64,000 bases of DNA from Verrucomicrobiota bacterium (GTDB lineage Bacteria; Verrucomicrobiota; Verrucomicrobiia; Limisphaerales; UBA9464), in assembly GCA_947471985.1 (NCBI GenBank), contig CANIZL010000007.1, forward strand, positions 1 through 64,000, written 5' to 3'. Every line of letters begins with the position of its first letter. Within the stretch, counting starts at the first letter, position 1. The position numbers and the translations under genes were made by a program. The notes beneath the pieces were generated by a model, which saw nothing but the letters and a program-made list of their open reading frames with translations, searched no databases and was not told the origin of the DNA. Below, piece by piece: positions 14,859 to 29,166 of the stretch.

Positions 14859-15359
14859 ACGGCCGAGCGGATCCCCCCTTCCCGCAGCCAAGCCGGTCAA
14901 TGAACGGTCCCTCCGGTCCGCGCTGGCGAATGTTTGATTCCATCGCCAAGAACACACCCCCATCGGCTTCCCAAGGAGGGCATCCATCGTGGTCAGCGCG
15001 ATTCCAAATTGATGCGCAGACACCGATCGATTCCGCCCCGGGCTTGCCTGACGACCAAGGGGGAGGAGGCCGGCATCTCCCGATCGCCCCTACTTCTTGC
15101 CGGCAGGCATTGAGAAAGGGGCAACCCGACCCACCGGTAGCCCGAATTAGTCCCCCGTGCCCCCTTGTCGCTCTTTTAGCAACTCGACCAAAAAGCAACA
15201 CTCAATCCTCTCAAAACAGCCGCCGCCGGGATAAAAAAGTGGAACCATTTCGAGCCTAAATCACTACCTCCGAAGGAATTCACCGTCCCTCCTCAATTCC
15301 GGCGGCCATCCGGCAAACAATGTGCTTCCCCGAGGTGTTTGCGGCAACTCCTCCAAAAA
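14859..15359. other. 500-bp intergenic region without a recognisable gene
   Basis: The ORFs crossing this region (14819-15259 in the track) continue out of the preceding gene in other frames and have Pro/Ser/Arg-rich composition. I see no RNA gene or convincing terminator. It probably holds the end of the efflux transcript and the promoter for the two-component genes that follow. Confidence 0.4.
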
Positions 15360-17852
15360 ATGCTTCATCGCCAGCCACCCGCTTGGGTGCTCGGTGTGCT
15401 GGTCGCCGGAGCGTGCCTATCGCTCGGCCTGGCCTTCTGGGTCCGGCGCTGGGAACGGCAGCTGATGCTGCAGCAATGCGCCGAACTCACCCATGGTCAG
15501 ATCGAACGCCTCCAGATTTCAATTCTGCGCTCCATCGAAACGCTGCAATCCGTTGCCGCCCTCGCTCGTACACGTGGCCGGATCCAACACGCGGAGTTCC
15601 GGGACTTCGTGCACGCCGCGCTGTCGCGACAGCCGGAATTGCAGGCGCTTTCGTGGAACCCCGTCGTCACCGCCGCCCACCGCACGGAGTTCGAAGCTGC
15701 GGTGGCCGCCGATGGTTTGCCCGGATTTCAACTTCGCGAATTAACGGTGCAGGGCCTTCTGGTCCCGGCCGCCGCCCGTCCGGAATACGTGCCGGTCACC
15801 ATCATCGAACCGCTCGCCCCCAACGCGGCCGCTTTGGGATTTGATTTAAATTCAGACCTGCGTCGACGGGGCTCGCTGGAACAGGCCCGTGACCTGGGCC
15901 AACCGGTGGCCACCGCCCCCGTGCGGCTCGCGCAGGCCGATCGCGATGAAGCGGGTTTTCTGGTTCTGCTGCCCGTCTTCAGTGGCGAGTCGCCGATTCC
16001 GGCAACTCTGGAGGAACGCCGGGCCCGATTGGGCGGCTTCGCCGTCGCCGTGTTCCGCGTGCCGTCGCTGGTCACCGACGCCTTCCGTGAGTTAAAATCG
16101 CGGGGCATCGAGGCGCGCTTGCATGATCTCGCTGACGACGGTGAGTTGATCTTTGAATCGGGCCCCGCCCAAGACGGCACCGTGGCGTGGTTGGAAGTGG
16201 CCAGCCGAAAATGGGCCGTGGTATTCGCGCCCACCGCGGAATTCGCTGCCGCCCAAACGCACGGGCAGTCCTGGGTGGTGTTGTTCGGCGGCCTGGCCGT
16301 CACGATGCTCGCCACCGGCTATCTCGACAGCAGCCGTCGCCGCACCGTGGAGGCCGCCGCCGCGAACACCACGCTCCAGCAGGAGGTCCGCATCCGCCAG
16401 CAGGCCGAGCAAACCGCCGATCGGGCCAATCAAGCCAAGTCGGATTTCCTCGCCAGCATGAGTCACGAAATCCGCACACCTCTCAACGCCATCCTGGGAT
16501 ACGCCCAACTGCTGCGCCGCGATCGGCAACTCTCCCCCGAACACCGCGACGCCATCGCCGGCATCCACGCCAGCGGCCAACACCTCCTCGGGCTCGTCAA
16601 TGAAGTGCTGGATCTCGCCAAGATCGAAGCCGGCCGCATGGATCTCCAACCGGTGACCTTCGACGTAGGGGCCTTGGGGCGCAGTCTCTCGGCCACCTTC
16701 AAACCCTTGTGCGCGGCCAAGGGGATCCGTTTTCGCCTGACCTTTGATGCCGCGGCGGCGCATTGGGTGCGGGGTGACGAGGGCAAATTGCGCCAGGTCT
16801 TGATCAACCTGCTGGGGAATGCGGTGAAATTCACCCACGCCGGTGAAGTCTTCCTGCGCTTCGGTCCATCCGCCGGCGAACGCTGGGATTTCGAGGTCAT
16901 CGATACCGGTCTCGGCATTCCCGCGGAGGAACACGCGGATATCTTCAAGCCGTTTCATCAGGGCGGCGGAGCGCAACATCAGGGCGGCACGGGACTCGGA
17001 TTGGCCATCGCCCGACGACAGGTCGAACTGCTCGGCGGCACGCTGGAACTGCAATCCGAGCGGGGCATTGGTTCGCGCTTCTATTTCACACTACCGCTAC
17101 CCACCGTCAGCAGCGCCAACGGCGGCGCCACCACCCAACCGTATCGGCTCGCGCCCGGCGCGCGCGTCGGCGCCCTCGTGATCGATGATCGGGCGGAGAA
17201 TCGCCAGGTACTCGGCGGTCTCCTCGCCGCGCTCGGCTGTGAGGTTTGGCGGGCGGCATCCGGCGCCGACGCGGTGACGCTCGCCCGACAACACCGGCCC
17301 GGGATCGTCTTTCTCGACTGGTTGTTGCCCGGCCAAAGCGCGGCGGAAATCGCCCGGGACCTCCTCGCCCAACTGCCGGAAACCCCGCCCCGGCTGATCA
17401 TGCACACCGCGTCGCCACTCCAGCAACACCGCGACGATGCCCGCGCCGCGGGTTGCACGAGTTTCCTCGAAAAACCGTTCACCACCCAACAACTCTGCGA
17501 ATGCCTCAGCCACAATCTGGGGGTCTCGTTCGAACACACGGAGGCCATCGCGGAGCCGGAATTGTTGCACCGATCGGAACCCACCCCGGTGCAAGTGCCG
17601 GAATCCCTGTGTGCGCGTTTGGTGGTCGCCGCGGAATTGCACAGCACCACCGCGTTGAAAGCCGCGCTGCTGGAACTATCCACCCTCGGCCCCGAGGCCC
17701 ACGCGCTCGCCGATCACCTGCGCCAACAAATGCGCAGCTTCGATCTGGACGGCGTCCAGCACTCCTTGGCGCGCTACGTCACGCCCGGCGCCGATCCCCT
17801 TCCCTCCTCTCCTACCCATGAAGCCTGTCGCTCCCCCGAACCCATCGCGTGA
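15360..17852 (+). CDS. CHASE-domain hybrid sensor histidine kinase with C-terminal receiver
   Basis: About 830 aa from the ATG at 15360 (the track start is a TTG 21 bp upstream). TM1 lies near residues 8-28. A periplasmic CHASE domain covers roughly 45-240, with [35 protein letters not shown] and [11 protein letters not shown] in family order. TM2 is near 303-322. The HisKA motif [11 protein letters not shown] has its phospho-His at about 369. The HATPase_c boxes are [24 protein letters not shown] and [15 protein letters not shown] receiver follows with the phospho-Asp at about 653 (VFLDWLLPG). A helical tail of about 100 residues may be a phosphotransfer-like end. It overlaps the activator gene by 35 bp and is presumably its partner. 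The ligand is unknown; some plant CHASE domains bind adenine-type cytokinins. Confidence 0.9.
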
Positions 17853-19344
17853 AAAGATCCTGCTGGTCGATGATGTGGCGGCGAATCTGTCCGTACTCAG
17901 CGCCGCTCTCGAACCGGAGGGCTATGAAATCCTCGTCGCCTCGGGCGGCGCACTCGCCCTGAAAGTCGCGGCCCGGGCCCGGCCGGACCTCATTCTCTTG
18001 GATGTCTTGATGCCGGAGATCGACGGCCTGGAAACCTGCCGCCGCCTCAAGCAGGACCCGGCGACACGCGATATTCCAGTGATCTTCATCACCGCCCGCA
18101 ATGAAATGGAAAGTGTCGTGGAGGGATTTCGGGCCGGCGGCGTGGACTACATTCTCAAGCCCTTCCAAACCGAGGAGGTGCTCAGTCGCCTCGCCACCCA
18201 CCTCGGACTCAGCCGCCTGACCCACGAATTACAGGAGAAGAACCGCGCCCTCGAGGCGCGCACGGAGGAGTTGCTGGCGGAAGTCCAGCGCCGGCGGCAG
18301 GCCGAGAACGCGCTGGAACAAGCCGATGCCCACTTGACCGTCCTCTCCGACCTGGCCGCCCAGCACTGGAATGTCACCGGACTCATTGGAGGCAGTGCGT
18401 CGATGCAAAAGCTGGTGGCCGACATCCGACGCCTTCATGCCTTTGCCAACACCAGCGTGCTCATCACGGGTGAGAGTGGCACGGGCAAGGAACTGATCGC
18501 CCGGGCCATCCACTTCGGCAGCCCGCGCGCCCGCGCGCCCTTCGTGCCCGTCAACTGCGTGGCCATCCCCGCGGAACTCGCGGAATCCATGCTGTTCGGC
18601 CACGTCAAAGGGGCCTTCACTGGCGCCACAACGGATCGCAAGGGCTACTTCGAATTCGCCCACGGTGGCACGTTGTTCCTCGACGAGATCGGCGACATGC
18701 CCGCCTCGCTGCAGGTAAAGCTTCTGCGGGTGCTGGAGGACGGCATGGTCACGCCCGTGGGATCTTCGCAGCCCCGGAAGGTCGACACCCGCATCCTCGC
18801 CGCGACCAACGCCGATCTCGACGCCCGCATCGCTCAGGGAGCTTTTCGTCAGGACCTCTATTTCCGGTTGGCCCGCTATCAGATCACGTCGACGCCCTTG
18901 CGGGAACGGGGCGAGGACGTGCCGCTGCTGGCGGCTCATTTCCTCAATCTCTTCGCGACGGAGATGGGCTTGAAGGCGCCGCGCTTGACCACCGAAGCGC
19001 TGGCCCTGCTCCAGACGTACGACTTCCCCGGCAACGTACGGGAACTGCGCAACATCATCGAACGCGCCCTCATCGAGAGCGGTGGCACCAACATCCTCCC
19101 GGCGCATTTGCCGCCGTTAAAACGCTTCGCCGTAACTGCCACCGTCGATACCGGCAGTCGTCGCCCGGCCAAAGCGCCTCCGATGGAATCCCTGCCGCTC
19201 AATCTGGCGGAGGCCGAGGATGTCCTCATCCAACGCGCCCTGCAGGAGACCGGCGGCAATATTGCCGACGCCGCGCGTCTGCTCGGAGTCCATCGCACCC
19301 GGATCTATCGCAAACTCGCACAGGAAGAACCCGCGCCCCGGTGA
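17818..19344 (+). CDS. Sigma-54-dependent response regulator (receiver-coiled coil-AAA+-Fis HTH)
   Basis: This is a 508-aa NtrC-class activator. The receiver domain (1-125) has [10 protein letters not shown] with the phospho-Asp at about 62. A charged coiled coil follows at about 130-175 ([20 protein letters not shown] region). The AAA+ domain carries Walker A GESGTGKE near 218, the sigma-54 contact loop GAFTGA at about 265-270, and [12 protein letters not shown] as Walker B. The C-terminal Fis-type HTH is [20 protein letters not shown]. The start lies inside the kinase gene, so the two are co-translated. TGTTTCA half-sites begin 8 bp after its stop codon and precede a -24/-12 promoter, which points to the downstream transport/hydrolase operon as its target. 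Confidence 0.94.
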
Positions 19345-19461: not shown

Positions 19462-19477
19462 TGGCACGAGGATCGCT
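19462..19477 (+). promoter_or_regulatory. Sigma-54 (-24/-12) promoter
   Basis: TGGCACG-AGGA-TCGCT matches the sigma-54 consensus TGGCACG-N4-TTGCW at all but one position. It preserves the GG-N10-GC spacing that RpoN needs. It lies 52 bp upstream of the first gene of the transport/hydrolase operon and directly downstream of a sigma-54 activator gene. Transcription should start around 19487-19489. Confidence 0.72.
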
Positions 19478-19528: not shown

Positions 19529-20515
19529 ATGAAATACCTTCCGTCAGTCTTCTCCCTTCCGCGGCTGAACTCCGGCCGGTCATCCCACTGCCTCCTCGGT
19601 GCCGTCGCCACGGCGGCCGCCCTATCCACTCTCACGCCGGCTCTACAGGCGGAGGAAACCGCCGTCCAGCGGTTCCACGCGGTGAACAATCTGGAGTTCT
19701 CCGACAAATACCTCACGCCCCGCGGCATGCTGGTCCACAACGACGGCCTCACCTTTCAGTGGCTCGCGCTCGGACTCTTCAACCTCTACCACGGCGACTC
19801 CTTCATCAACGACATCACCCTGGTGGGCGGTGTCTGGAATGATTTCAGCTCCAGTCCGGTTTCGGTGCACCCGCCGTTCAACAGCAGTCCCAAGACCAGC
19901 TGGGTGGAGATCGATCCGATCGCCGGCATCTCGGTGGGCTTCGCGAAGAACTTCAAGCTCGATGTCACCTATACGGCCTTCAACATGCAGATCCTCGACA
20001 TCGGTACGTCGCAGCATCTGGAAACGAAACTGAGCTTTGATGATTCGCCCTACCTGAAGGCGTTCGCGCTGCATCCCTACCTGCTCTTCTGGAAGGAACT
20101 CGACGGCAAGGCCACGGCGGCTCAGGTGCCGTATTTCGTGGATCCTCTGGGCAAGAACCCGGGTGCGCCGCCGGACTCCAGCTACTATTTCGAACTCGGC
20201 ATCGCGCCGGGCTACACGTTCAAGGATCTTGGCGTAAAGGTCGAAGTCCCCATTCGAGCCCTGCTGCCGAACAAGGATTTCTACGGCGAGTATTATGACA
20301 AGGCGTCCACGGTTGGACTCTACGAAGTCGGCGCCAAGGTGACCGTGCCCCTCAAATTCGTGCCACCGGGGTACGGCTTCTGGAATTTCCATCTCGGTGT
20401 CCGCTACATGAGCTTTGAAGACAAGAACCTCCAAGGCATGCAGCAGTTCAATGCGCCCGGCAAGGCCGTGAAGGATGCCGTGCAATACTACTGCGGATTC
20501 AACGCGTTCTTCTGA
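19529..20515 (+). CDS. Outer-membrane beta-barrel protein, first gene of the sigma-54 operon
   Basis: The 328-aa protein has a long N-terminal signal sequence (HCLLGAVATAAALSTLTPALQAEE). Alternating hydrophobic/aromatic strands follow throughout and it ends in YYCGFNAFF, where a terminal Phe is typical of outer-membrane barrels. I do not recognise a named family. As the first gene after the -24/-12 promoter and before a BMP-type ABC importer, it is likely to be the outer-membrane channel for the imported compound. That role is comparable to the nucleoside channel Tsx but there is no evident sequence relation. No strong ribosome-binding site is visible before the ATG. Confidence 0.7.
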   Translation: MKYLPSVFSLPRLNSGRSSHCLLGAVATAAALSTLTPALQAEETAVQRFHAVNNLEFSDKYLTPRGMLVHNDGLTFQWLALGLFNLYHGDSFINDITLVGGVWNDFSSSPVSVHPPFNSSPKTSWVEIDPIAGISVGFAKNFKLDVTYTAFNMQILDIGTSQHLETKLSFDDSPYLKAFALHPYLLFWKELDGKATAAQVPYFVDPLGKNPGAPPDSSYYFELGIAPGYTFKDLGVKVEVPIRALLPNKDFYGEYYDKASTVGLYEVGAKVTVPLKFVPPGYGFWNFHLGVRYMSFEDKNLQGMQQFNAPGKAVKDAVQYYCGFNAFF

Positions 20516-20562
20516 GCGACCACCCCCGCACCAAAATCGCTGTTCCCAACTTCCCTTCATTC

Positions 20563-21681
20563 ATGAAATTTTTCTCCCGGACATTTCCCCTGATCGCCAC
20601 ACTGGCCACCGCCACGCTGTGCTCCGGTCCCACCCGCGCCGCCGACAAAGTCGTCGCCGGCTTCATCTACGTCGGTCCCAAGGACGACTACGGTTACAAC
20701 CAGGCGCATTCCGAAGGCTGCCGCGGCGTGCAAAAGCTCTCGTGGGTCAAAGGCGTGGAAGAGGCCAGCGTGCCGGAAACCACCGCCGTACAGGAGACCA
20801 TGCGCAACATGATCAATCTCGACGGCGCATCGGTGCTCTTTCCCACCTCGTTCGGCTACTTTGATCCGCACATTCTGAAGGTCGCCAAGCAGTATCCCAA
20901 GGTGCAGTTCGTGCACTGCGGCGGCCTCTACACCGAGGGCAAGCATCCGGCCAATGTCGGCAGCTACTTCGGCTATATCGACGAGGCGGTCTACGTTGCC
21001 GGCATCGTCGCCGGACACGCCACGAAATCCGGCAAACTCGGGTTCATCGCGGCCAAGCCCATTCCGCAGGTGCTGCGCAACATCAACGCCTTCGCGCTCG
21101 GAGCGCAGAGCGTGAACCCCAAGGCCACCGTGCAGGTGATCTTCACGGGTGAATGGTCCATGCCCGTCAAGGAGGCCGAGGCGGCCACGTCCCTCATCAA
21201 CCAGGGCGTGGATGCCCTCACGTGCCACGTCGACAGCCCGAAGGTGATCCTCGAAACCGCGGAACGCCGGGGCATTTTTGTCACCGGCTATCATGCGAAC
21301 GGCGCGAAACTCGCGCCAAAGGGTTATCTCACCGGCGCCGAGTGGAACTGGTCGAAGGTCTACACGGATTACGCCGAAGCGGTGAAGGCGGGCAAGTCCC
21401 TCGCGGCCGGAACCATACCTCACCTCGTCCGCGGCGGCATCAAGGAAGGCTTTGTGAAGGTCTCCGATTACGGCCCGGCGGTGACCGACGCCGCCAAGGC
21501 CGACGCCGAGGCCGCCAAGGCCAAATTCCTCGCGGGCACGATGGTGATCTTCAAGGGACCGCTCAAGGACAACACCGGGAAAGAGATCCTCCCCGAGGGC
21601 AAGGACCTCGCCCAGCAGGCGTTGGAACTGGAATCGATGGGCTGGCTGGTGGCCGGCGTGATCGGCAGCACCAAGAACTGA
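20563..21681 (+). CDS. BMP-family ABC transporter substrate-binding protein
   Basis: The 372-aa protein has a signal peptide (TLATATLCSGPTRAAD). A Bmp/PnrA-type binding domain follows, with GFIYVGPKDDYGYNQAHSEG at the start of the mature chain, FVHCGGLYTEG, GSYFGYIDEAVYVAGIVAG and DALTCHVDSPKVI. BMP-family proteins such as PnrA bind purine nucleosides; other branches bind related heterocycles or ureides. The two permeases and ATPase that follow complete the importer. The gene lies 47 bp after the outer-membrane protein gene. Confidence 0.92.
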   Translation: MKFFSRTFPLIATLATATLCSGPTRAADKVVAGFIYVGPKDDYGYNQAHSEGCRGVQKLSWVKGVEEASVPETTAVQETMRNMINLDGASVLFPTSFGYFDPHILKVAKQYPKVQFVHCGGLYTEGKHPANVGSYFGYIDEAVYVAGIVAGHATKSGKLGFIAAKPIPQVLRNINAFALGAQSVNPKATVQVIFTGEWSMPVKEAEAATSLINQGVDALTCHVDSPKVILETAERRGIFVTGYHANGAKLAPKGYLTGAEWNWSKVYTDYAEAVKAGKSLAAGTIPHLVRGGIKEGFVKVSDYGPAVTDAAKADAEAAKAKFLAGTMVIFKGPLKDNTGKEILPEGKDLAQQALELESMGWLVAGVIGSTKN

Positions 21682-21700
21682 GGCTGAACCACACCGCTTT

Positions 21701-22804
21701 ATGAGCGCCGTCGCCACCGCCCACGATCCGGCCGCCACTCGCGGGGCGCCGCGTACCGCGGTGCGGTGGCGGCCGGCGCTCGAAGCCGTCGTCCTGCCCG
21801 TCGGCGCCGTCCTCGTCGCCCTCATTCTGTTCGGCGCCTTCTGCCTGACCCAGGGGCGAAACCCGCTGGCCGTTTTCGCCGCCATCTATCAAGCCGCCTT
21901 CGGCTCGGGATATTCCTTTCAGAACACCTTGGTGCGCGCCGCGCCTTTAATGCTCACGGCGCTCTGCACCGCCCTGCCCGCCCGGCTTGGATTGGTCATC
22001 ATTGGCAATGAGGGCGCCCTGGTGGCCGGCGGCGTGGCGGCCACTGCCGCCGGGTTGCTCGTGTCGACCACCTCGCCCCTCGTCGTAATCAGCTGCATGC
22101 TTCTCGCCGGAATGATCGGCGGCGGCCTTTGGATCACGCTCGTCGGTTTCCTCTTTTACTTCCGCAGCGTCAACGAGACCATCAGCAGTCTGCTGCTCAA
22201 TTACATCGCCATCGCCGTGTTAAACCATTTGGTGAACGGCCCGATGCGCGATCCCAGCAGCCTCAACAAACCTTCCAGCTTTCCCATTCCCGAGGACAAA
22301 ATGCTACCCCTCCTCGGCAGCACCAACGTGCACTTCGGATTGATCTTCGGGATCATTGTGTGCCTGCTGGCCTGGGGGCTCATGGAGCACACCACCTTCG
22401 GTTTCAAAGTGCGCATGATCGGCGGCAACATCCGCGCCGCGCGCCTGGCCGGATTGCCCGTGACCCGGCTCGGTCTCATCACCTGCTTCCTCGCCGGCGC
22501 CGCGGCCGGTATCGCCGGCATGGTGGAAGTCGCCGCCGTTCAGGGCCGCGCCAACGAATCGCTCGCCGCCGGTTATGGCTACGCCGGGATCCTGGTGGCC
22601 TTCGTCGCCCGACATCGCGGACTGCCCATCATTCTCGTCGCCACCCTGCTCGGCGGCATCCTCGCCAGCGGTGGCATCCTGCAACGGCAGTTTCAATTGC
22701 CCGACGCCACCATCCTCGTTTTTCAGGGCCTCGTCTTCCTCGTGATTCTGCTCAGCGAGTCCCTCTACGGAAAGTTCAAATTCTTTAAGGAAACCGGCGC
22801 ATGA
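21701..22804 (+). CDS. ABC importer permease (BMP/nucleoside type, first subunit)
   Basis: The 367-aa integral membrane protein has about eight to ten hydrophobic segments and belongs to the BPD_transp_2 family. Recognisable pieces are RAAPLMLTALCTALPARLGL, IGNEGALVAGG and the EAA-like coupling region RMIGGNIRAARLAGLPVTR. This is the longer permease of the YufP/NupP pair. Its stop overlaps the next permease start by 4 bp (ATGA), so the two are translated together. Confidence 0.9.
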   Translation: MSAVATAHDPAATRGAPRTAVRWRPALEAVVLPVGAVLVALILFGAFCLTQGRNPLAVFAAIYQAAFGSGYSFQNTLVRAAPLMLTALCTALPARLGLVIIGNEGALVAGGVAATAAGLLVSTTSPLVVISCMLLAGMIGGGLWITLVGFLFYFRSVNETISSLLLNYIAIAVLNHLVNGPMRDPSSLNKPSSFPIPEDKMLPLLGSTNVHFGLIFGIIVCLLAWGLMEHTTFGFKVRMIGGNIRAARLAGLPVTRLGLITCFLAGAAAGIAGMVEVAAVQGRANESLAAGYGYAGILVAFVARHRGLPIILVATLLGGILASGGILQRQFQLPDATILVFQGLVFLVILLSESLYGKFKFFKETGA

Positions 22805-23727
22805 TCACTGAATCCATCGGCGGTTGGGGCGTGGTGATCGGCATACTCGCGGGCGCCGTGCGCGGCGGGACTCCGTTCCTGCTGGTCAGCTTGGGCGAGT
22901 GCCTCACGGAAAAGAGCGGCAAGATCAACCTGGGCCTGGAAGGCGTGCTGTTGATCGGCGCCATGAGCGCCTACGCCGTCTCATATCAAACCGGCAGTCC
23001 GTGGGTCGGGGTGGCCGCGGCGGGGATCGCCGGCGCAATTCTCGGGGCGATTCATGCTTTTCTGGTTTCGCGGCCCAAGGTCAATGACATCGCTGCCGGG
23101 ATTGCGATGCTGATCTTCGGGAGCGGCTGCGCGTTCTTCCTGGGCAAGCCCTATATTCAGCCCAGTGCTCCGCAATTGCCCGCGATCGCGCTCGGCGGTT
23201 GGTCGTCCATCCCCCAGGTCGAAGCCGCCCTGAAGATCAGTCCGCTCTTTTTCTTCGGCGTGGCCGCCGCCTTTCTGCTCCAAGCCTTTTTCCGCTCCAC
23301 CCGCTGGGGTATGCAGGTCCGCGCCGTGGGCGATTCGCCCGCCGCCGCCCAGGCCCTGGGCATCTCCGTCCCCCGCACGCGCTTTGCCGCCATCGTCACC
23401 GGCAGCGCCCTCGGCGGCATGGGCGGTGCGCATCTGTCCCTGTTCTATCCCGGCGCCTGGACCGAGGCCATTTCCAGCGGACAAGGTTTAATGGCCGTGG
23501 CATTGGTGATTTTCGCCCGCTGGAACCCGGTGAAATGTCTCTGGGCCTCGCTGCTGTTTGGCGGTGCCCAGGCGGTCGGGCCGTCGCTCCAGGCCGTGGG
23601 CATCAGCACCGGCTACTACCTGTGGAATGCCTCGCCCTACATTCTCACGCTGGGTGTGATGATCCTCACTTGTTCCCCCAAACGCACACTGATCGGTGCC
23701 CCCGGCGCTCTCGGCTCCTCCTCTTAA
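22801..23727 (+). CDS. ABC importer permease (BMP/nucleoside type, second subunit)
   Basis: This is a 308-aa membrane protein of the YufQ/NupQ type. It shows GTPFLLVSLGECLTEKSGKINLGLEGVLLIG near the N-terminus, a motif highly typical of this subunit, and the cytoplasmic coupling loop MQVRAVGDSPAAAQALGISV. It pairs with the upstream permease in the membrane channel and would contact the ATPase encoded two genes downstream. The hydrolase gene inserted before the ATPase gene supports a single transcription unit. Confidence 0.92.
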   Translation: MITESIGGWGVVIGILAGAVRGGTPFLLVSLGECLTEKSGKINLGLEGVLLIGAMSAYAVSYQTGSPWVGVAAAGIAGAILGAIHAFLVSRPKVNDIAAGIAMLIFGSGCAFFLGKPYIQPSAPQLPAIALGGWSSIPQVEAALKISPLFFFGVAAAFLLQAFFRSTRWGMQVRAVGDSPAAAQALGISVPRTRFAAIVTGSALGGMGGAHLSLFYPGAWTEAISSGQGLMAVALVIFARWNPVKCLWASLLFGGAQAVGPSLQAVGISTGYYLWNASPYILTLGVMILTCSPKRTLIGAPGALGSSS

Positions 23728-23751
23728 ATTCACGCATAAACCTCCGAACCC

Positions 23752-24435
23752 ATGTCCCGACACGTCGATGCCGCTCCCTATCCCTGGCCCTACAACGGTG
23801 ATCTCCGTCCCGCCAACACGGCGATTGTGGTCATCGATATGCAGACCGATTTCTGCGGTCCGGGCGGTTATGTCGACACCATGGGCTACGATCTTGCCCT
23901 CACCCGCGCGCCCATCGGTCCGATTCAACGCGTCCTGAAGGCGGCCCGTGCGCAGGGCTTCCACGTGCTCCACACGCGCGAAGGACATCGACCGGATCTC
24001 GCTGATCTGCCCGCCAACAAGCGCTGGCGCAGTCGGCGCATCGGCGCGGGCATCGGCGACAGCGGTCCCTGCGGACGGATCCTCATCCGCGGCGAGGCCG
24101 GGTGGGAGATCATTCCCGAGCTGGCCCCCTGGCCCGGGGAATCGGTCATCGATAAACCCGGCAAGGGCTCGTTCTACGCCACGGATCTGGATCTGCTGTT
24201 GCGGCAAAAGGGGATTCAGAACCTCGTCCTGACCGGCATCACCACGGATGTCTGCGTGCACACCACGATGCGCGAAGCCAATGACCGCGGTTACGAATGC
24301 CTCCTGCTTTCCGACGCCACCGGCGCCACCGACCACGGCAATCACCTCGCCGCCCTGAAGATGATTCAGATGCAGGGCGGTGTGTTTGGCGCTGTGGCCG
24401 ATTCCGACGCCTTCATCCGCGCCCTGCAAGGTTAA
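23752..24435 (+). CDS. biuH: Cysteine hydrolase strongly resembling biuret amidohydrolase (BiuH)
   Basis: This 227-aa protein of the isochorismatase-like superfamily has a complete catalytic triad: Asp29 ([10 protein letters not shown]), Lys135 ([15 protein letters not shown]) and Cys168 ([11 protein letters not shown]). The opening ([14 protein letters not shown]), [36 protein letters not shown] and [13 protein letters not shown] agree closely with the biuret hydrolase of Rhizobium as I remember it. BiuH splits biuret to allophanate and ammonia. The same superfamily includes RutB and the triuret hydrolase TrtA, so the exact substrate needs testing. Its location between importer permease and ATPase genes implies it acts on the imported compound. 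The gene symbol is a best guess. Confidence 0.75.
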
Positions 24436-24439
24436 TCCC

Positions 24440-25981
24440 ATGCTCATCCCGCCACCCGCCGAACGTCCGCTGCAGCCGCTCCCACTGGAGCTGGTAAAGC
24501 TCACCAAACGATTCGGCGCCTTCGTGGCCAACGATCAGATTTCGCTCAAGGTCCCGCCCGGCACCTTCCACGCCCTGCTCGGCGAAAACGGCGCCGGCAA
24601 AAGCACCCTGGTGAAATGCATCATGGGCTATCACCAGGCGGACGAGGGGGATCTGGTCATCGACGGTCATTCGCGTGAGATCCGCAGTCCCTACGACGCC
24701 TACCAATTCGGCATCGGCATGGTGTACCAGCATTTCACGCTCGTGCCCGCGATGACCGTGGCGGAAAACCTCGTACTGAGCCGTCCCAACACCCCCGGCA
24801 TCATCCGCTGGAAGGAGGAGCGGGAACACCTGCGTGAGTTCATGAAGACCGCACCGTTCCAGGTGGATCTCGATACCCCCGCCGGACAGCTCGCCGCCGG
24901 ACAAAAGCAGAAGGTGGAAATCCTGAAGCAGCTTTATCTCAACAGCCGCTTCCTCATCCTCGACGAACCCACCTCGGTGCTGACACCCGCGGAAGCAGAC
25001 GAAGTTCTGGGGTTGATCCGCGACAAGGTGAAGGCCGGGCACCTGAGTGTGCTGCTCATCACGCACAAGTTCCGCGAGGTCTTCGCGTTTTGTGACGAGA
25101 TCACTGTGCTGCGTCGAGGCAAATTCGCCGGGGCCGGCAAGGTGGCGGATCTGCGCGCCGACGACATGGCCGCCATGATGATGGGTGGCCAACGCGAGGC
25201 CCGGGTCGTCCGCAAACTCCCACGCGAACGCGGGCCCGCAGCGCTCGAACTCAAGGGCCTGTGCGCCAATCAGGACAACGGTCTGCCCGCGGTGAACCAG
25301 GTGAATCTCACGATTCATGAAGGCGAGGTCGTCGGCATCGCCGGTGTGTCCGGCAACGGCCAACGCGAATTGGTGGAAGTCCTCGCCGGCCAGCGTCCCG
25401 CCACCGGGGGCACCGTGCAGGTCCATGGCCAGGCGTATTCGGCGACCCGCGCCGAAGCCTTTCAGCACAAGGTCTTCCTGCTGCCCGAGGAGCCGCTGCG
25501 CAACGCCTGCGTTCCCGGGATGACCGTCGCCGAAAACATCGCCTTCCGCAGTTTTGATCGACCGCCCATCGGCCGGGCTGGTTGCTTTGTAAGTCGTCCC
25601 GCGATCCGCAAATTCGCCCAGGAATTGATCACCCGCTTTTCGGTGAAGACCCGTTCCACCGAGACGCCCATCGGGGATCTGTCCGGCGGCAACGTGCAGC
25701 GCGCGGTGCTGGCGCGGGAACTCGGGCCCGGAACGGCGCAGGTTCTGATCACCGCCAATCCCTGTTTCGGTCTCGACTTCGCCGCCGTGGAATCCATCCA
25801 CAGTCAGATCACCGAGGCCCGCAATCGCGGCGTGGCCGTGCTCCTTGTCAGCGAAGATCTCGATGAACTGCTCGCCCTGGCCGACCGCCTGCTGGTGATT
25901 TCCCACGGAGAGTTGGTTTACGAAACCACGCCGGCGCAGGCCGAAATCAACACCATCGGTCACCACATGGCCGGCCACTGA
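24440..25981 (+). CDS. ABC importer ATPase with two nucleotide-binding domains
   Basis: The ATG at 24440, 4 bp after the hydrolase stop, is preferred over the track start, which lies inside that gene. The 513-aa protein is a tandem ATPase of the YufO/RbsA type. Domain 1 (about 15-240) has Walker A GENGAGKST, signature LAAGQKQKVEI and Walker B FLILDEPTSVL. Domain 2 (about 260-500) has a degenerate P-loop GVSGNGQRE without the Lys, signature LSGGNVQRAVLAREL and a changed Walker B region (NPCFGLDF). A non-canonical second site is usual in this family. It powers the BMP-type importer. Confidence 0.93.
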   Translation: MLIPPPAERPLQPLPLELVKLTKRFGAFVANDQISLKVPPGTFHALLGENGAGKSTLVKCIMGYHQADEGDLVIDGHSREIRSPYDAYQFGIGMVYQHFTLVPAMTVAENLVLSRPNTPGIIRWKEEREHLREFMKTAPFQVDLDTPAGQLAAGQKQKVEILKQLYLNSRFLILDEPTSVLTPAEADEVLGLIRDKVKAGHLSVLLITHKFREVFAFCDEITVLRRGKFAGAGKVADLRADDMAAMMMGGQREARVVRKLPRERGPAALELKGLCANQDNGLPAVNQVNLTIHEGEVVGIAGVSGNGQRELVEVLAGQRPATGGTVQVHGQAYSATRAEAFQHKVFLLPEEPLRNACVPGMTVAENIAFRSFDRPPIGRAGCFVSRPAIRKFAQELITRFSVKTRSTETPIGDLSGGNVQRAVLARELGPGTAQVLITANPCFGLDFAAVESIHSQITEARNRGVAVLLVSEDLDELLALADRLLVISHGELVYETTPAQAEINTIGHHMAGH

Positions 25982-26001
25982 AGCCTTCATTCGCCTCACC
26001 C

Positions 26002-26679
26002 ATGCCGAACTCCACTCTGATCACCGTCGCCGCGGAGCCTTATGCCTTCGAGTTCACGCCGGCCACTTGCGCGCTGTTGATCATCGATATGCAGCGCGAT
26101 TTTCTCGAGCCCGGCGGCTTCGGAGAAATGCTCGGCAACGATGTCGCGAAATTGCGCCGGACCATCGCGCCGAACCAGCAACTGCTCGCCGCGTGGCGGG
26201 CGAAGGGCTGGAAGGTCCTTCATACCCGTGAAGGACACCGACCCGATCTTTCCGATTTGCCACCCGCCAAGAAGGTGCGGGGCCGCAGCCCGATGACCAT
26301 CGGTGATCGCGGACCCATGGGGCGGATCCTCATCCGCGGTGAAGCCGGCCACGATATCATTCCGGAACTGTATCCGCTGCCCACCGAACCGGTGATCGAC
26401 AAACCGGGCAAGGGCGCGTTCTTCGCCACCGACCTGCACGCCATCCTGCAAAACTGCGGCATCCAACAATTGATCGTCACCGGGGTGACCACGGAAGTCT
26501 GCGTGAACACCACGGTTCGCGAAGCCAACGACCGGGGATACGACTGCCTCGTCCCGGCGGATTGCGTGGGCTCCTATTTTCCTGAATTCCAGGACCTGGG
26601 CCTCCGCATGATCCGCGCCCAGGGCGGCATCTTCGGGTGGGTTTCCCACTCGGACAATCTCCTCGCCGCGCTTCACTGA
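26002..26679 (+). CDS. Second cysteine hydrolase (isochorismatase superfamily), possible triuret hydrolase-type paralogue
   Basis: This 225-aa paralogue of the BiuH-like protein has the same triad at nearly the same positions: Asp29 (IIDMQRDFLEPGGFG), Lys134 (DKPGKGAFFATDL) and Cys167 (GVTTEVCVNTT). It shares [28 protein letters not shown] and [10 protein letters not shown]. It differs in the N-terminus and in the pocket-facing stretch PPAKKVRGRSPMTIGDRGPMG, so a different but related substrate is likely. Two such enzymes in one operon fit stepwise hydrolysis, for example triuret then biuret. TrtA-like function is inference; an enzyme acting on ureidoacrylate or another ureide is possible. 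Confidence 0.7.
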   Translation: MPNSTLITVAAEPYAFEFTPATCALLIIDMQRDFLEPGGFGEMLGNDVAKLRRTIAPNQQLLAAWRAKGWKVLHTREGHRPDLSDLPPAKKVRGRSPMTIGDRGPMGRILIRGEAGHDIIPELYPLPTEPVIDKPGKGAFFATDLHAILQNCGIQQLIVTGVTTEVCVNTTVREANDRGYDCLVPADCVGSYFPEFQDLGLRMIRAQGGIFGWVSHSDNLLAALH

Positions 26680-26727
26680 TCCCCTGCTTTCCCGGTCACC
26701 AACGCAGAACCAGCCCCGCCCATTCCT

Positions 26728-28329
26728 ATGAGTGAATCCAGCAAACCCAGAATCTGGGTACCCGGAGATTGGAACGCCTTCTTCGGTTTCGGCACGAACA
26801 TCCTCGTCAACCTGCTCACGCTCACCGGCCTGTTGCGGTTTGTGCTGAAGATGCCGGATGAGCTGGTCTTCGGGCGCATTCTGCCGGCGACCGGATTGAT
26901 GCTGTGCCTGTCCACCCTCTACTACGCCTGGCTGGCCTATCGCCTCGCGCAGCAGACCGGCCGCACCGACGTCTGCGCACTGCCCTCGGGAACCAGCGTG
27001 CCGCACATGTTCGTGGTGACCTTCATCATCATGCTGCCCATCACCCTGAAAACCGGGGATCCAGTGAAGGGGTGGGAGGCGGGACTCACGTGGGTGTTCC
27101 TGCAAAGCTTTGTCCTGATGATCGGCGGGTTCATCGCCCCAGTGATCCGCAAGATCACTCCGCGCGCCGCCCTGTTGGGCACGCTGGCGGGCGTGTCGAT
27201 CACCTTCATCTCCATGCGTCCGGCGCTGGAGATGTTCCTGACGCCGTTGATCGGATTGCCGTGCTTCGCGATCATCCTGCTCAGCTGGTTTGGCGGGGTG
27301 AAATACCGGGGCATTCCCGCCGGACTGGTAGCGATCGCCACCGGCACGGTGATCGCGTGGGGCTCCACAGCCCTGGGCGGCCACCACGGCGGCATGAGCC
27401 TGCAAGGCCTCACGGATTCGGTGACGAATTTCGGCTTCCACGTGCCCCTGCCCGCGTTCCAACACGTTTTCGCCGGCTTCGAATTCCTCGGCATCCTGCT
27501 CGTCACCGCGATTCCCTTCGGCATCTATGATCTCGTCGAAGCCATCGACAACGTCGAAAGCGCCGCCGTGGCGGGGGACAGTTTCCCGACGACCCGCGTG
27601 CTCACCGCGGATGGGGTCGTGAGTCTGATCGGTTGCCTCATGGGCAATCCCTTCATCAACGCCGTCTACATTGGTCATCCCGGTTGGAAGGCGATGGGCG
27701 GCCGCATCGGCTATTCGGCCGCCACGGGCATCGCGGTGATTCTCCTCTGCTGGTTTGGCACCATCTCGGTCATGCTGGCGCTGATCCCGGCGGTCGCGAT
27801 CCTGCCGATCCTGCTCTACATCGCGATGTTGATTGGCTCGCAGGCCTTTCAGGAGACCCCCCGAAGCCACGCGCCGGCGATTGTTCTCTCGCTCGTCCCG
27901 CATCTCGCCCATTGGGCAGTCACGCTGATCACCGGCGCGCTCGCTGCCGCCGGCACCATCACGGCGGCCCTGCCCCCGGACCAATTGGAGGCCTTGGTGG
28001 GACGGATGAAGAATGAAGGTGTGCTTTTCCACGGGCTGCAAGTCCTGGGCGGCGGCTCCATTCTGGGCGGATTAATCCTCGGCGCGATCGCGGCGTTTAT
28101 CATTGATCGAAATTTCTCGAAAGCCGCCGGCTTCGCGCTGGCGGGTGCGATCCTGACCTTCTTTGGCTTTATGCACGGCGAACGCATCGGCTTCGCCCAG
28201 ACGCCCATGGTTGCGCTGAGTTACCTGGTGGTGTCCGGGCTCCTGCTGGGTTGCGCCAAATTCGCCGCGGTGACGGCCCGGCCGGCCGAGGAGCCCGCCG
28301 AACCGCACGCGGCTGGCGCCCTGGCGTAA
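26728..28329 (+). CDS. NCS2-like nucleobase/urate permease
   Basis: The 533-aa polytopic membrane protein has roughly 12-14 hydrophobic segments. Features suggesting the nucleobase-cation symporter-2/AzgA-like fold are FFGFGTNILVNLLTLTGL at the N-terminus, the broken-helix region CALPSGTSVPHMFV, and the acidic segment IPFGIYDLVEAIDNVESA, which corresponds to the conserved Glu-containing TM8 region. NCS2 members carry xanthine, uracil or urate. Finding one next to biuret-type hydrolases suggests a purine breakdown product or a cyclic ureide as substrate. The protein is not a close match to a characterised carrier I can name. Confidence 0.75.
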   Translation: MSESSKPRIWVPGDWNAFFGFGTNILVNLLTLTGLLRFVLKMPDELVFGRILPATGLMLCLSTLYYAWLAYRLAQQTGRTDVCALPSGTSVPHMFVVTFIIMLPITLKTGDPVKGWEAGLTWVFLQSFVLMIGGFIAPVIRKITPRAALLGTLAGVSITFISMRPALEMFLTPLIGLPCFAIILLSWFGGVKYRGIPAGLVAIATGTVIAWGSTALGGHHGGMSLQGLTDSVTNFGFHVPLPAFQHVFAGFEFLGILLVTAIPFGIYDLVEAIDNVESAAVAGDSFPTTRVLTADGVVSLIGCLMGNPFINAVYIGHPGWKAMGGRIGYSAATGIAVILLCWFGTISVMLALIPAVAILPILLYIAMLIGSQAFQETPRSHAPAIVLSLVPHLAHWAVTLITGALAAAGTITAALPPDQLEALVGRMKNEGVLFHGLQVLGGGSILGGLILGAIAAFIIDRNFSKAAGFALAGAILTFFGFMHGERIGFAQTPMVALSYLVVSGLLLGCAKFAAVTARPAEEPAEPHAAGALA

Positions 28330-28384
28330 CCATGTCGCCCCTGCGCCCTTTCACAATTCGCCACTCCGCGCTTAAGAACACTTC

Positions 28385-28768
28385 ATGCCAATTGATTCCG
28401 AGCGGGTCCTCAAGCTCAACGATCTTTTTCAAGTAACCGGCTGGCAGCACAAGCTGCCGTGGCAGCCCTTCCAGAGCGGCGTGGATATCTACCGGCTCTA
28501 CGGCGACGGCATCTCGGGGCCCACGGCCGCCTTGCTGCGTTTCCGCGCGGGCGGACGGGTTCCGTTGCATGAGCACACGGGATTCGAGCATATCTTTGTG
28601 CTGGCCGGATCCCAGGTGGACGAAAACAGCCGCGCGGAAGCCGGTTCCCTGATCATCAATCCGCCCGGCACCAGCCACAGCATCCTCAGTGAAAACGGAT
28701 GCATCGCGCTCGCGATTTACGAAAAACCGATAAAATTCCTGAGTCCGTCCAACGCCAATCCCCCATGA
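28385..28768 (+). CDS. ChrR-like cupin protein
   Basis: A small (127-aa) single-domain cupin. Motif 1 is HEHTGFEHIFVLAGSQ (two His and a Glu as metal ligands) and motif 2 is GSLIINPPGTSHSI. The region before them (WQPFQSGVDIYRLYG) resembles ChrR-type anti-sigma cupins without the N-terminal zinc domain. In this operon it may be a small isomerase, lyase or substrate sensor. Its stop overlaps the next start (ATGA), so it is coupled to the AH_C protein and the two may act together. Confidence 0.85.
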   Translation: MPIDSERVLKLNDLFQVTGWQHKLPWQPFQSGVDIYRLYGDGISGPTAALLRFRAGGRVPLHEHTGFEHIFVLAGSQVDENSRAEAGSLIINPPGTSHSILSENGCIALAIYEKPIKFLSPSNANPP

Positions 28769-29166
28769 GCCCGACCTCCGCCCCCGTTCTGCTCGCCGTC
28801 AACGGCACGTTGATGCGCGGCCTCGAACTCAATCCCAATCTGCTGGCCGTCCACGCCACCTTCGAACGCGAGACGGAAACGGAAACGGCGTATCGTTTGT
28901 GGTCGATCAACGATCGGCATCCGGCGATGGTGCGAGTGCGGGAGGGCGGCCGGGCCGTTCCGGTGGAGGTTTGGTCCGTACCGCCCGCGGGACTCGCCTA
29001 CATTCTCCAGCAGGAGCCGCCGGGATTGAGCATCGGCAAAGTCACCTTGGCCGACGGGAGCGTGGTACTGGGTGTGCTCGGTGAACCCATCCTCTGCGAA
29101 GACCAGCGCGAGATTACGTCCTTCGGGGGCTGGCGCGCCTACTGCGCCCACGGCAAGGGGCGCTGA
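28765..29166 (+). CDS. Standalone allophanate hydrolase C-terminal (AH_C) domain protein
   Basis: The ATG at 28765 overlaps the cupin stop; the track start lies upstream in the wrong context. The 133-aa product matches only the C-terminal domain of allophanate hydrolase (AtzF type). It shows the VNGTLMRG loop of the gamma-glutamylcyclotransferase-like fold, YRLWSINDRHPAMVRV, VPVEVWSVP, GLSIGKVTLADGS and the hallmark ending ITSFGGWRAYCA. In full-length enzymes this domain follows an amidase domain and is proposed to finish the breakdown of the carboxylated intermediate. No amidase domain is encoded in the window. It could act on an N-carboxylated ureide made by the hydrolases upstream, or pair with an amidase encoded elsewhere. 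Confidence 0.82.
   Translation: MSPTSAPVLLAVNGTLMRGLELNPNLLAVHATFERETETETAYRLWSINDRHPAMVRVREGGRAVPVEVWSVPPAGLAYILQQEPPGLSIGKVTLADGSVVLGVLGEPILCEDQREITSFGGWRAYCAHGKGR

Follow-up and report, generated by a model that had tools for sequence, protein, structure and literature searches.

Decarboxylation steps in triuret and biuret degradation

The C-terminal domain of allophanate hydrolases such as AtzF and DUR1,2 (AH_C) has the decarboxylation of N-carboxycarbamate as its proposed reaction. For the AtzF domain, decarboxylation was reportedly proposed by Fan et al. 2013, and TrtB, the carboxybiuret decarboxylase, is said to have been described and defined in Aukema 2020. The published pathway for triuret and biuret, from Herbaspirillum, runs through TrtA, TrtB, BiuH and AtzF, with AtzF last, and the product of TrtA is carboxybiuret, which has a half-life of ~20 min (PMC7948467). 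In a 2025 survey of nitrifiers, biuH loci lacking atzF or trtB were found, and the missing steps were left open (PMC12625717). A small decarboxylase that removes CO2 from an unstable N-carboxyurea and averts pathway dead ends has been described in Pseudomonas ADP (AtzH, DUF3225; PMC6219798), but it has an unrelated NTF2 fold, acts on 1,3-dicarboxyurea and has AtzEG and AtzF as partners. Free-standing AH_C proteins are already known from databases, under the name 'allophanate hydrolase-related protein', and one structure was solved in 2015. For one of them, E. coli c4763, a second-hand description as a homologue of allophanate hydrolase that acts in the breakdown of urea is available (PMC7558591). 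A literature search found no role for this lone AH_C family.

Here, a lone AH_C protein encoded in the window (the whole stretch of DNA analysed, 64,000 nucleotides of a Verrucomicrobiota contig) is compared with these systems. We consider it fairly probable that the protein is a decarboxylase for the N-carboxylated ureas that the two cysteine hydrolases encoded in the operon produce. Several elements appear to be new: a distinct active site, the exclusion of AtzF in genomes with BiuH, nesting within urease genes, two gene fusions and the pathway proposal that results from them.

A ureide operon in the window

The AH_C gene is the last of a co-directional run extending from 19529 to 29166. The features of the region are as follows.

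15339..17852, + strand: hybrid histidine kinase (CHASE, HisKA, HATPase, REC)
17818..19344, + strand: sigma-54-dependent response regulator (REC-AAA+-HTH_8; PF00158 at 224 bits, PF00072, PF02954)
19462..19476, + strand: putative sigma-54-like promoter, TGGCACGAGGATCGC (GG-N10-GC), a pattern match only
19529..20515, + strand: first operon gene, 328 aa, no Pfam family, outer-membrane-like by eye
20563..21681, + strand: BMP-type substrate-binding protein (PF02608, 142 bits)
21701..22804, + strand: ABC permease 2 (PF02653)
22801..23727, + strand: ABC permease 1 (PF02653)
23752..24435, + strand: BiuH, biuret amidohydrolase (NF050097, 422.8 bits)
24440..25981, + strand: ABC transporter ATPase (PF00005, 161 bits)
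26002..26679, + strand: TrtA-like cysteine hydrolase, candidate triuret hydrolase (identity and motifs)
26728..28329, + strand: permease-like membrane protein, 533 aa, NCS2-like by eye
28385..28768, + strand: cupin (ChrR-like Cupin_7), 127 aa (PF12973, 67 bits)
28765..28768, + strand: ATGA overlap of the AH_C start codon and the cupin stop codon
28765..29166, + strand: lone AH_C protein, 133 aa (PF21986, 5c5z, predicted structure, alignment)

The response regulator is probably the regulator of the operon, and a similar one stands upstream in another locus (L065). Relatives of the first operon gene are found at 48-73% identity. BiuH passes the equivalog cut-off of its profile (370 bits) and is 76% identical to the R. 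leguminosarum enzyme (6azo). The TrtA-like protein is 57% identical to Herbaspirillum TrtA (6xix) and 52% to BiuH (6azo), and carries the TrtA-type SYFPEF and GW motifs; in a small tree it falls beside proteins of E. coli and Terrarubrum, outside the group of characterised TrtA enzymes. The 533-aa membrane protein, which is kept across these clusters and has no Pfam family above cut-off and no relative in the PDB, is probably a member of an undescribed ureide permease family; its gene adjoins trtA in most relatives within the order, and a Terrarubrum protein of like length and position is annotated only as 'regulator'.

The genome shares TrtA and BiuH homologues with the Herbaspirillum pathway and has no AtzF; a lone AH_C and urease are present instead, and a cupin is the candidate for TrtB. 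The urease genes lie on another contig (C133), where their neighbours encode a periplasmic binding protein and a permease resembling the Urt urea uptake system. The BMP-ABC transporter also occurs in related clusters of Rhizobium and Citrobacter. Rhizobium, Citrobacter and Sulfitobacter have a formamidase gene in their triuret/biuret clusters (L159, L160, L161), and such a gene adjoins a lone AH_C gene in one cyanobacterium (L121).

The lone AH_C protein and its family

The first-pass annotation had described a 133-aa AH_C protein with an NGTLMRG loop and an FGGWRAY ending. The open reading frame is present at 28765-29166 (+), and the two motifs are located at residues 13-19 and 120-126, on either side of an invariant glutamate, E84. 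The profile search and structure comparison that it had proposed as checks were carried out and both agree with the assignment. Against Pfam AH_C (PF21986; curated cut-off 27 bits), the protein reaches 138.7 bits (E = 1.2e-40), and the alignment spans positions 2-123 of a 123-position profile, so the domain is complete and the match far above chance. The search against the PDB retrieved E. coli c4763 (5c5z) at E=1.1e-45. An AF2 model (mean pLDDT 82) has the AH_C fold, and Foldseek places c4763 (TM 0.85) first, the K. lactis allophanate hydrolase C domain (4iss, TM 0.82-0.84) second and gamma-glutamylcyclotransferases after these. Given this structural match, neither of the two outcomes named beforehand as telling against the reading, a protein without the AH_C fold and a degenerate copy beside a complete gene, was found.

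The protein might be suspected of being a decayed or inert piece of allophanate hydrolase, since just one AtzF domain is present: it matches NF006043 only at profile positions 470-597, and its 133 residues hold no N-terminal amidase domain. But the domain is full-length and 59-60% identical to the E. coli member, certain positions are strictly conserved across phyla, the gene is operonic and is the only AH_C gene in the 6.4 Mb assembly, and the structure of a relative has been solved. Conservation and domain completeness rule this candidate out, and we give it virtually no likelihood. Judged by its sequence, the window protein is a member of a widespread stand-alone family and no fragment.

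The order was surveyed in 293 genomes. A lone-type AH_C that is complete or nearly so was found in 23 of them and an AtzF-type AH_C in 8, counts that leave out two further weak matches (G103, G238). A genome scan returned 392 loci, and the best 80 of these, on which the wide scans rest, belong to cyanobacteria, Verrucomicrobia, Rokubacteria, Mycobacterium, Nitrospira and Proteobacteria. Of 5426 complete E. coli genomes, 1551 (~29%) carry the E. coli member, and 125 of its places are plasmids. A second, lower-scoring lone paralogue (~91-116 bits, 135-170 aa) accompanies the main copy in many of the genomes G293-G325 and in the cyanobacterial class described below.

The E. coli c4763 protein (WP_000214035) resembles the window protein in being free-standing, in E84 and other conserved residues, and in the TrtA-like hydrolase of its operon, but that operon contains AllFGHK and a cytosine permease, and neither BiuH nor a cupin. 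The C-terminal domains of AtzF and DUR1,2 (4gyr, 4iss, 5i8i) share fold and family (PF21986) with the window protein, which differs from them in being unfused to an amidase and in having NGTLMRGLxL in place of GAHLxGxPL.

Active-site residues

To compare the two forms, 128 lone copies, several of which duplicate a single locus, were aligned with 14 domains of the AtzF type. The histidine invariant in the AtzF-type domains (14/14), which is the His of the GAH motif and corresponds to K. lactis His492 in the numbering of 5i8i, is replaced by leucine (Leu16) in all aligned lone copies. Because of this substitution, the mechanism of AtzF is not simply transferable to the lone AH_C. Conversely, E84 is found in all aligned lone copies, while all 14 AtzF-type domains have Ile or Val there. 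NGTLMRG, E84, K92 and the free-standing domain are shared between the window protein and the lone family of E. coli c4763.

The stretch EVWSVPPAGLAYILQQE (E68-E84) aligns without gaps with the stretch of human GGACT that ends at E82, the residue mutated in 3jud. From this alignment, in which the equivalence of E84 and E82 comes from sequence and not from superposition, the lone form is seen to keep a GGACT-type glutamate, with E84 as the putative catalytic residue. Fold and catalytic Glu position are common to the window protein and the GGCT/GGACT gamma-glutamylcyclotransferases, and the protein also has a GGACT Pfam match (26.3 bits, above cut-off), which together could point to a gamma-glutamylamine-cyclotransferase-like enzyme unrelated to N-carboxyureas. 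These enzymes have another gene context, and identity in the structural matches to them is 12-23%. Lone AH_C genes, however, stand among ureide and urease genes in several phyla, and the fusion partners of AH_C are TrtA and carbamate kinase; the chance that the protein is such an enzyme appears very slight.

Search for an amidase partner

An amidase partner was sought in the window genome and in 32 other genomes with AH_C. No AtzF was found in the window genome. As stated in the first-pass annotation, the window holds no amidase partner: the two amidase-signature proteins of the genome, GatA (C58) and a PRK08137-type protein (C25), lie on other contigs, and neither reaches the AtzF cut-off. 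The further search for an allophanate amidase elsewhere in the genome thus gave no good candidate.

In the cyanobacterial class, AtzF-type AH_C domains also occur by themselves, in short reading frames of 138-225 aa (G358, G511, G341, G342, G359 and others), suggesting from their sequences split allophanate hydrolases in some members. At several loci (L089, L113, L114, L136, L141-L143, L153), a lone AH_C gene is followed, at a distance of a few hundred bases, by one for an AtzE-family amidase, which is possibly another N-carboxyurea context. In one genome of the order (G120), 25 amidase-signature matches were counted, and the majority form clusters on three contigs (C274, C299, C212).

These short frames, the AtzE-type neighbours and the two amidase-signature proteins of the window genome would agree with a reading of the lone AH_C as one part of an allophanate hydrolase split in two, in which it performs the ordinary second step of AtzF and a GatA-like or PRK08137-type amidase is encoded elsewhere. 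Against this stand the failure of both amidases to reach the AtzF cut-off, genomes such as G286, which has BiuH, TrtA and AH_C and in which a GatA-type protein is the only amidase found, and the lone sequences themselves, which form a separate family with other conserved residues. A split enzyme is therefore regarded as highly improbable.

Co-occurrence with BiuH, TrtA, AtzF and urease

Within the order, BiuH is encoded in 22 genomes, and a lone AH_C accompanies it in 21. The remaining one (G188) lacks the lone AH_C; it has BiuH, a TrtA-like gene and the cupin, and a fused AtzF is encoded elsewhere. A TrtA-like gene accompanies the lone AH_C in 23/23 genomes of the order. A second survey covered the class to which a cyanobacterial locus belongs (291 genomes), and the AH_C types in it were split by profile score (lone, 121-144 bits; AtzF-type, >=154 bits). 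Among its 120 genomes with BiuH, 106 have the lone type, 6 the AtzF type, none both and 8 neither. Fisher P values for these co-occurrences ignore shared ancestry and can be read as pattern strength only. BiuH and AH_C are also found without a second match in members of this class (G472, G501, G295 and others), and outside the order, 8 of 34 lone-AH_C genomes with orphan context have no strong match to BiuH or TrtA.

Urease genes are present in 22/23 lone-AH_C genomes of the order vs 65/270 others. The corresponding figures for the cyanobacterial class are 120/122 (lone), 12/21 (AtzF-type) and 120/148 (others); there, urease is a weak discriminator because 252/291 genomes have it.

Gene neighbourhoods and fusions

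A tie to urease is also seen in gene order. In one genome (G195), ureD-ureAB-ureC-ureF, the whole ureide operon ending in cupin and AH_C, and then ureG follow each other on one strand. A similar nesting extends over a partly unannotated gap in G069, ureF precedes and ureG follows the ureide operon in G137 and G095, and ureG comes after AH_C in 7 loci. At two Sneathiella loci, AH_C is near urease genes without BiuH or TrtA.

Other neighbours are the cysteine hydrolases. The trtA gene is directly upstream of AH_C in several phyla, including cyanobacteria and Nitrospira; in a Nitrospira locus the two genes overlap by 4 bases, and no amidase is encoded within the stretch read. In Roseiarcus sp. 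(L128:7296-8387), a single 363-aa protein is a fusion of a TrtA-like hydrolase and AH_C. A second fusion, of carbamate kinase and AH_C, was found in a member of the order (G196, L029:1483-2859, - strand), with a urea transporter gene after it and an AllG gene before it. Loci of E. coli and Mycobacterium have AH_C with a TrtA homologue and without BiuH.

It had been proposed in the first-pass annotation that the lone AH_C could act on carboxybiuret. This is borne out insofar as the protein goes with cysteine hydrolases that make N-carboxyureas (TrtA in 23/23 genomes, trtA upstream, the fusion); what it missed are allophanate and urea, indicated by the replacement of AtzF and the tie to urease. 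If AH_C acted on carboxybiuret only, as an analogue of TrtB that feeds BiuH, with allophanate passing to urea unaided or via the cupin, then the natural TrtA-AH_C fusion, the position of trtA directly upstream in cyanobacteria and Nitrospira, the constant presence of TrtA in lone-AH_C genomes of the order, and the E. coli and Mycobacterium loci would be expected. It would leave unexplained, however, that no BiuH genome has both a lone AH_C and AtzF, that AH_C is present in BiuH genomes without a second match, and that the operon is nested among urease genes; moreover, the window cupin is by position the better candidate for TrtB. A role restricted to carboxybiuret is thus unlikely.

The cupin

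The gene next to AH_C in the window encodes a cupin whose metal ligands (H62, H64, E68, H98) are invariant in 18 sequences. In the loci of the order that include flanking sequence, the cupin adjoins AH_C in all except one (G196). Cupin genes overlap the end of trtA in Rhizobium, where AtzD is encoded in the operon, and in Sulfitobacter; these cupins are 40-44% identical to that of the window and keep the four metal ligands. Because related cupins follow trtA in these two genera, the window cupin is, by gene order, a candidate TrtB, which would be a carboxybiuret decarboxylase distinct from AH_C. The ATGA overlap had been placed at the cupin start and taken as a sign of joint function. The four bases at 28765-28768 in fact join the AH_C start to the cupin stop, and in cyanobacteria, Nitrospira, Mycobacterium and E. 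coli most of the loci have no cupin. For this reason, the cupin was rejected as an obligate partner of AH_C.

With the cupin as TrtB, AH_C could be an allophanate decarboxylase only. The mutual exclusion with AtzF in BiuH genomes and the association and nesting with urease would follow from this, as would the exception in the order (G188), where the cupin is retained beside AtzF and the lone AH_C is missing, and the clusters of Rhizobium and Sulfitobacter, where the cupin follows trtA and, in Sulfitobacter, AtzF is fused. The TrtA-AH_C fusion and the loci with TrtA only do not fit, and the assignment of TrtB to the cupin comes from gene order. We therefore hold a role restricted to allophanate to be rather unlikely, though deserving of attention.

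A proposed route to urea and urease

Altogether, carboxybiuret is suggested as a substrate by the TrtA-AH_C fusion and the TrtA-only loci, and allophanate, the product of BiuH, with or instead of carboxybiuret, by the exclusion and replacement of AtzF and the nesting and other ties with urease. One decarboxylase accepting carboxybiuret or allophanate would cover all of these observations. In the route proposed, TrtA would convert triuret to carboxybiuret and ammonia, carboxybiuret would yield biuret and CO2, BiuH would convert biuret to allophanate and ammonia, and allophanate would yield urea and CO2, with urea being split by urease. AH_C would catalyze at least one of the two decarboxylations and would most likely act on both substrate classes, depending on the organism, with E84 as the putative general acid protonating the urea nitrogen as CO2 departs. 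It is suggested that the lone AH_C replaces allophanate hydrolase, with CO2 being stripped from the intermediates and urea left for urease; AtzF would not be needed, since urease degrades the urea released by decarboxylation. For the window, with its additional TrtB-like cupin, allophanate is the most likely main substrate of AH_C, which would put the protein in the place of AtzF.

The cupin may already supply one decarboxylation, and both carboxybiuret and allophanate decarboxylate without an enzyme as well, so that an enzyme for them may be dispensable. Because both substrates decay unaided, it would add rate and control rather than possibility.

E. coli is urease-negative (PMC11326118), and its AH_C loci and those of Mycobacterium have no BiuH, and thus fit carboxybiuret better than allophanate. 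The product of these AllFGHK-type clusters may be biuret; it could be speculated that biuret is then split into carbamoyl phosphate and urea. More broadly, and only tentatively, with chances that we put a little short of even, the family may comprise general N-carboxyurea decarboxylases with a GGACT-type glutamate, serving an AtzF-independent route from triuret and biuret to urea and urease in cyanobacteria, Verrucomicrobia and Nitrospira, and an AllFGHK variant in ~29% of complete E. coli genomes. If so, the AtzF-independent route would be common in cyanobacteria and Verrucomicrobia and would also occur in Nitrospira; the AllFGHK variant would release urea in E. coli and gain ATP through carbamoyl phosphate. 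The lone AH_C family would link biuret use to urease and is the best candidate for a missing step in these three groups, and the proposal supplies a testable function for a gene of 1551/5426 complete E. coli genomes. The whole operon of TrtA-like protein, AllFGHK, AH_C and cytosine permease is also borne by a conjugative E. coli IncK plasmid (L078, CP070395).
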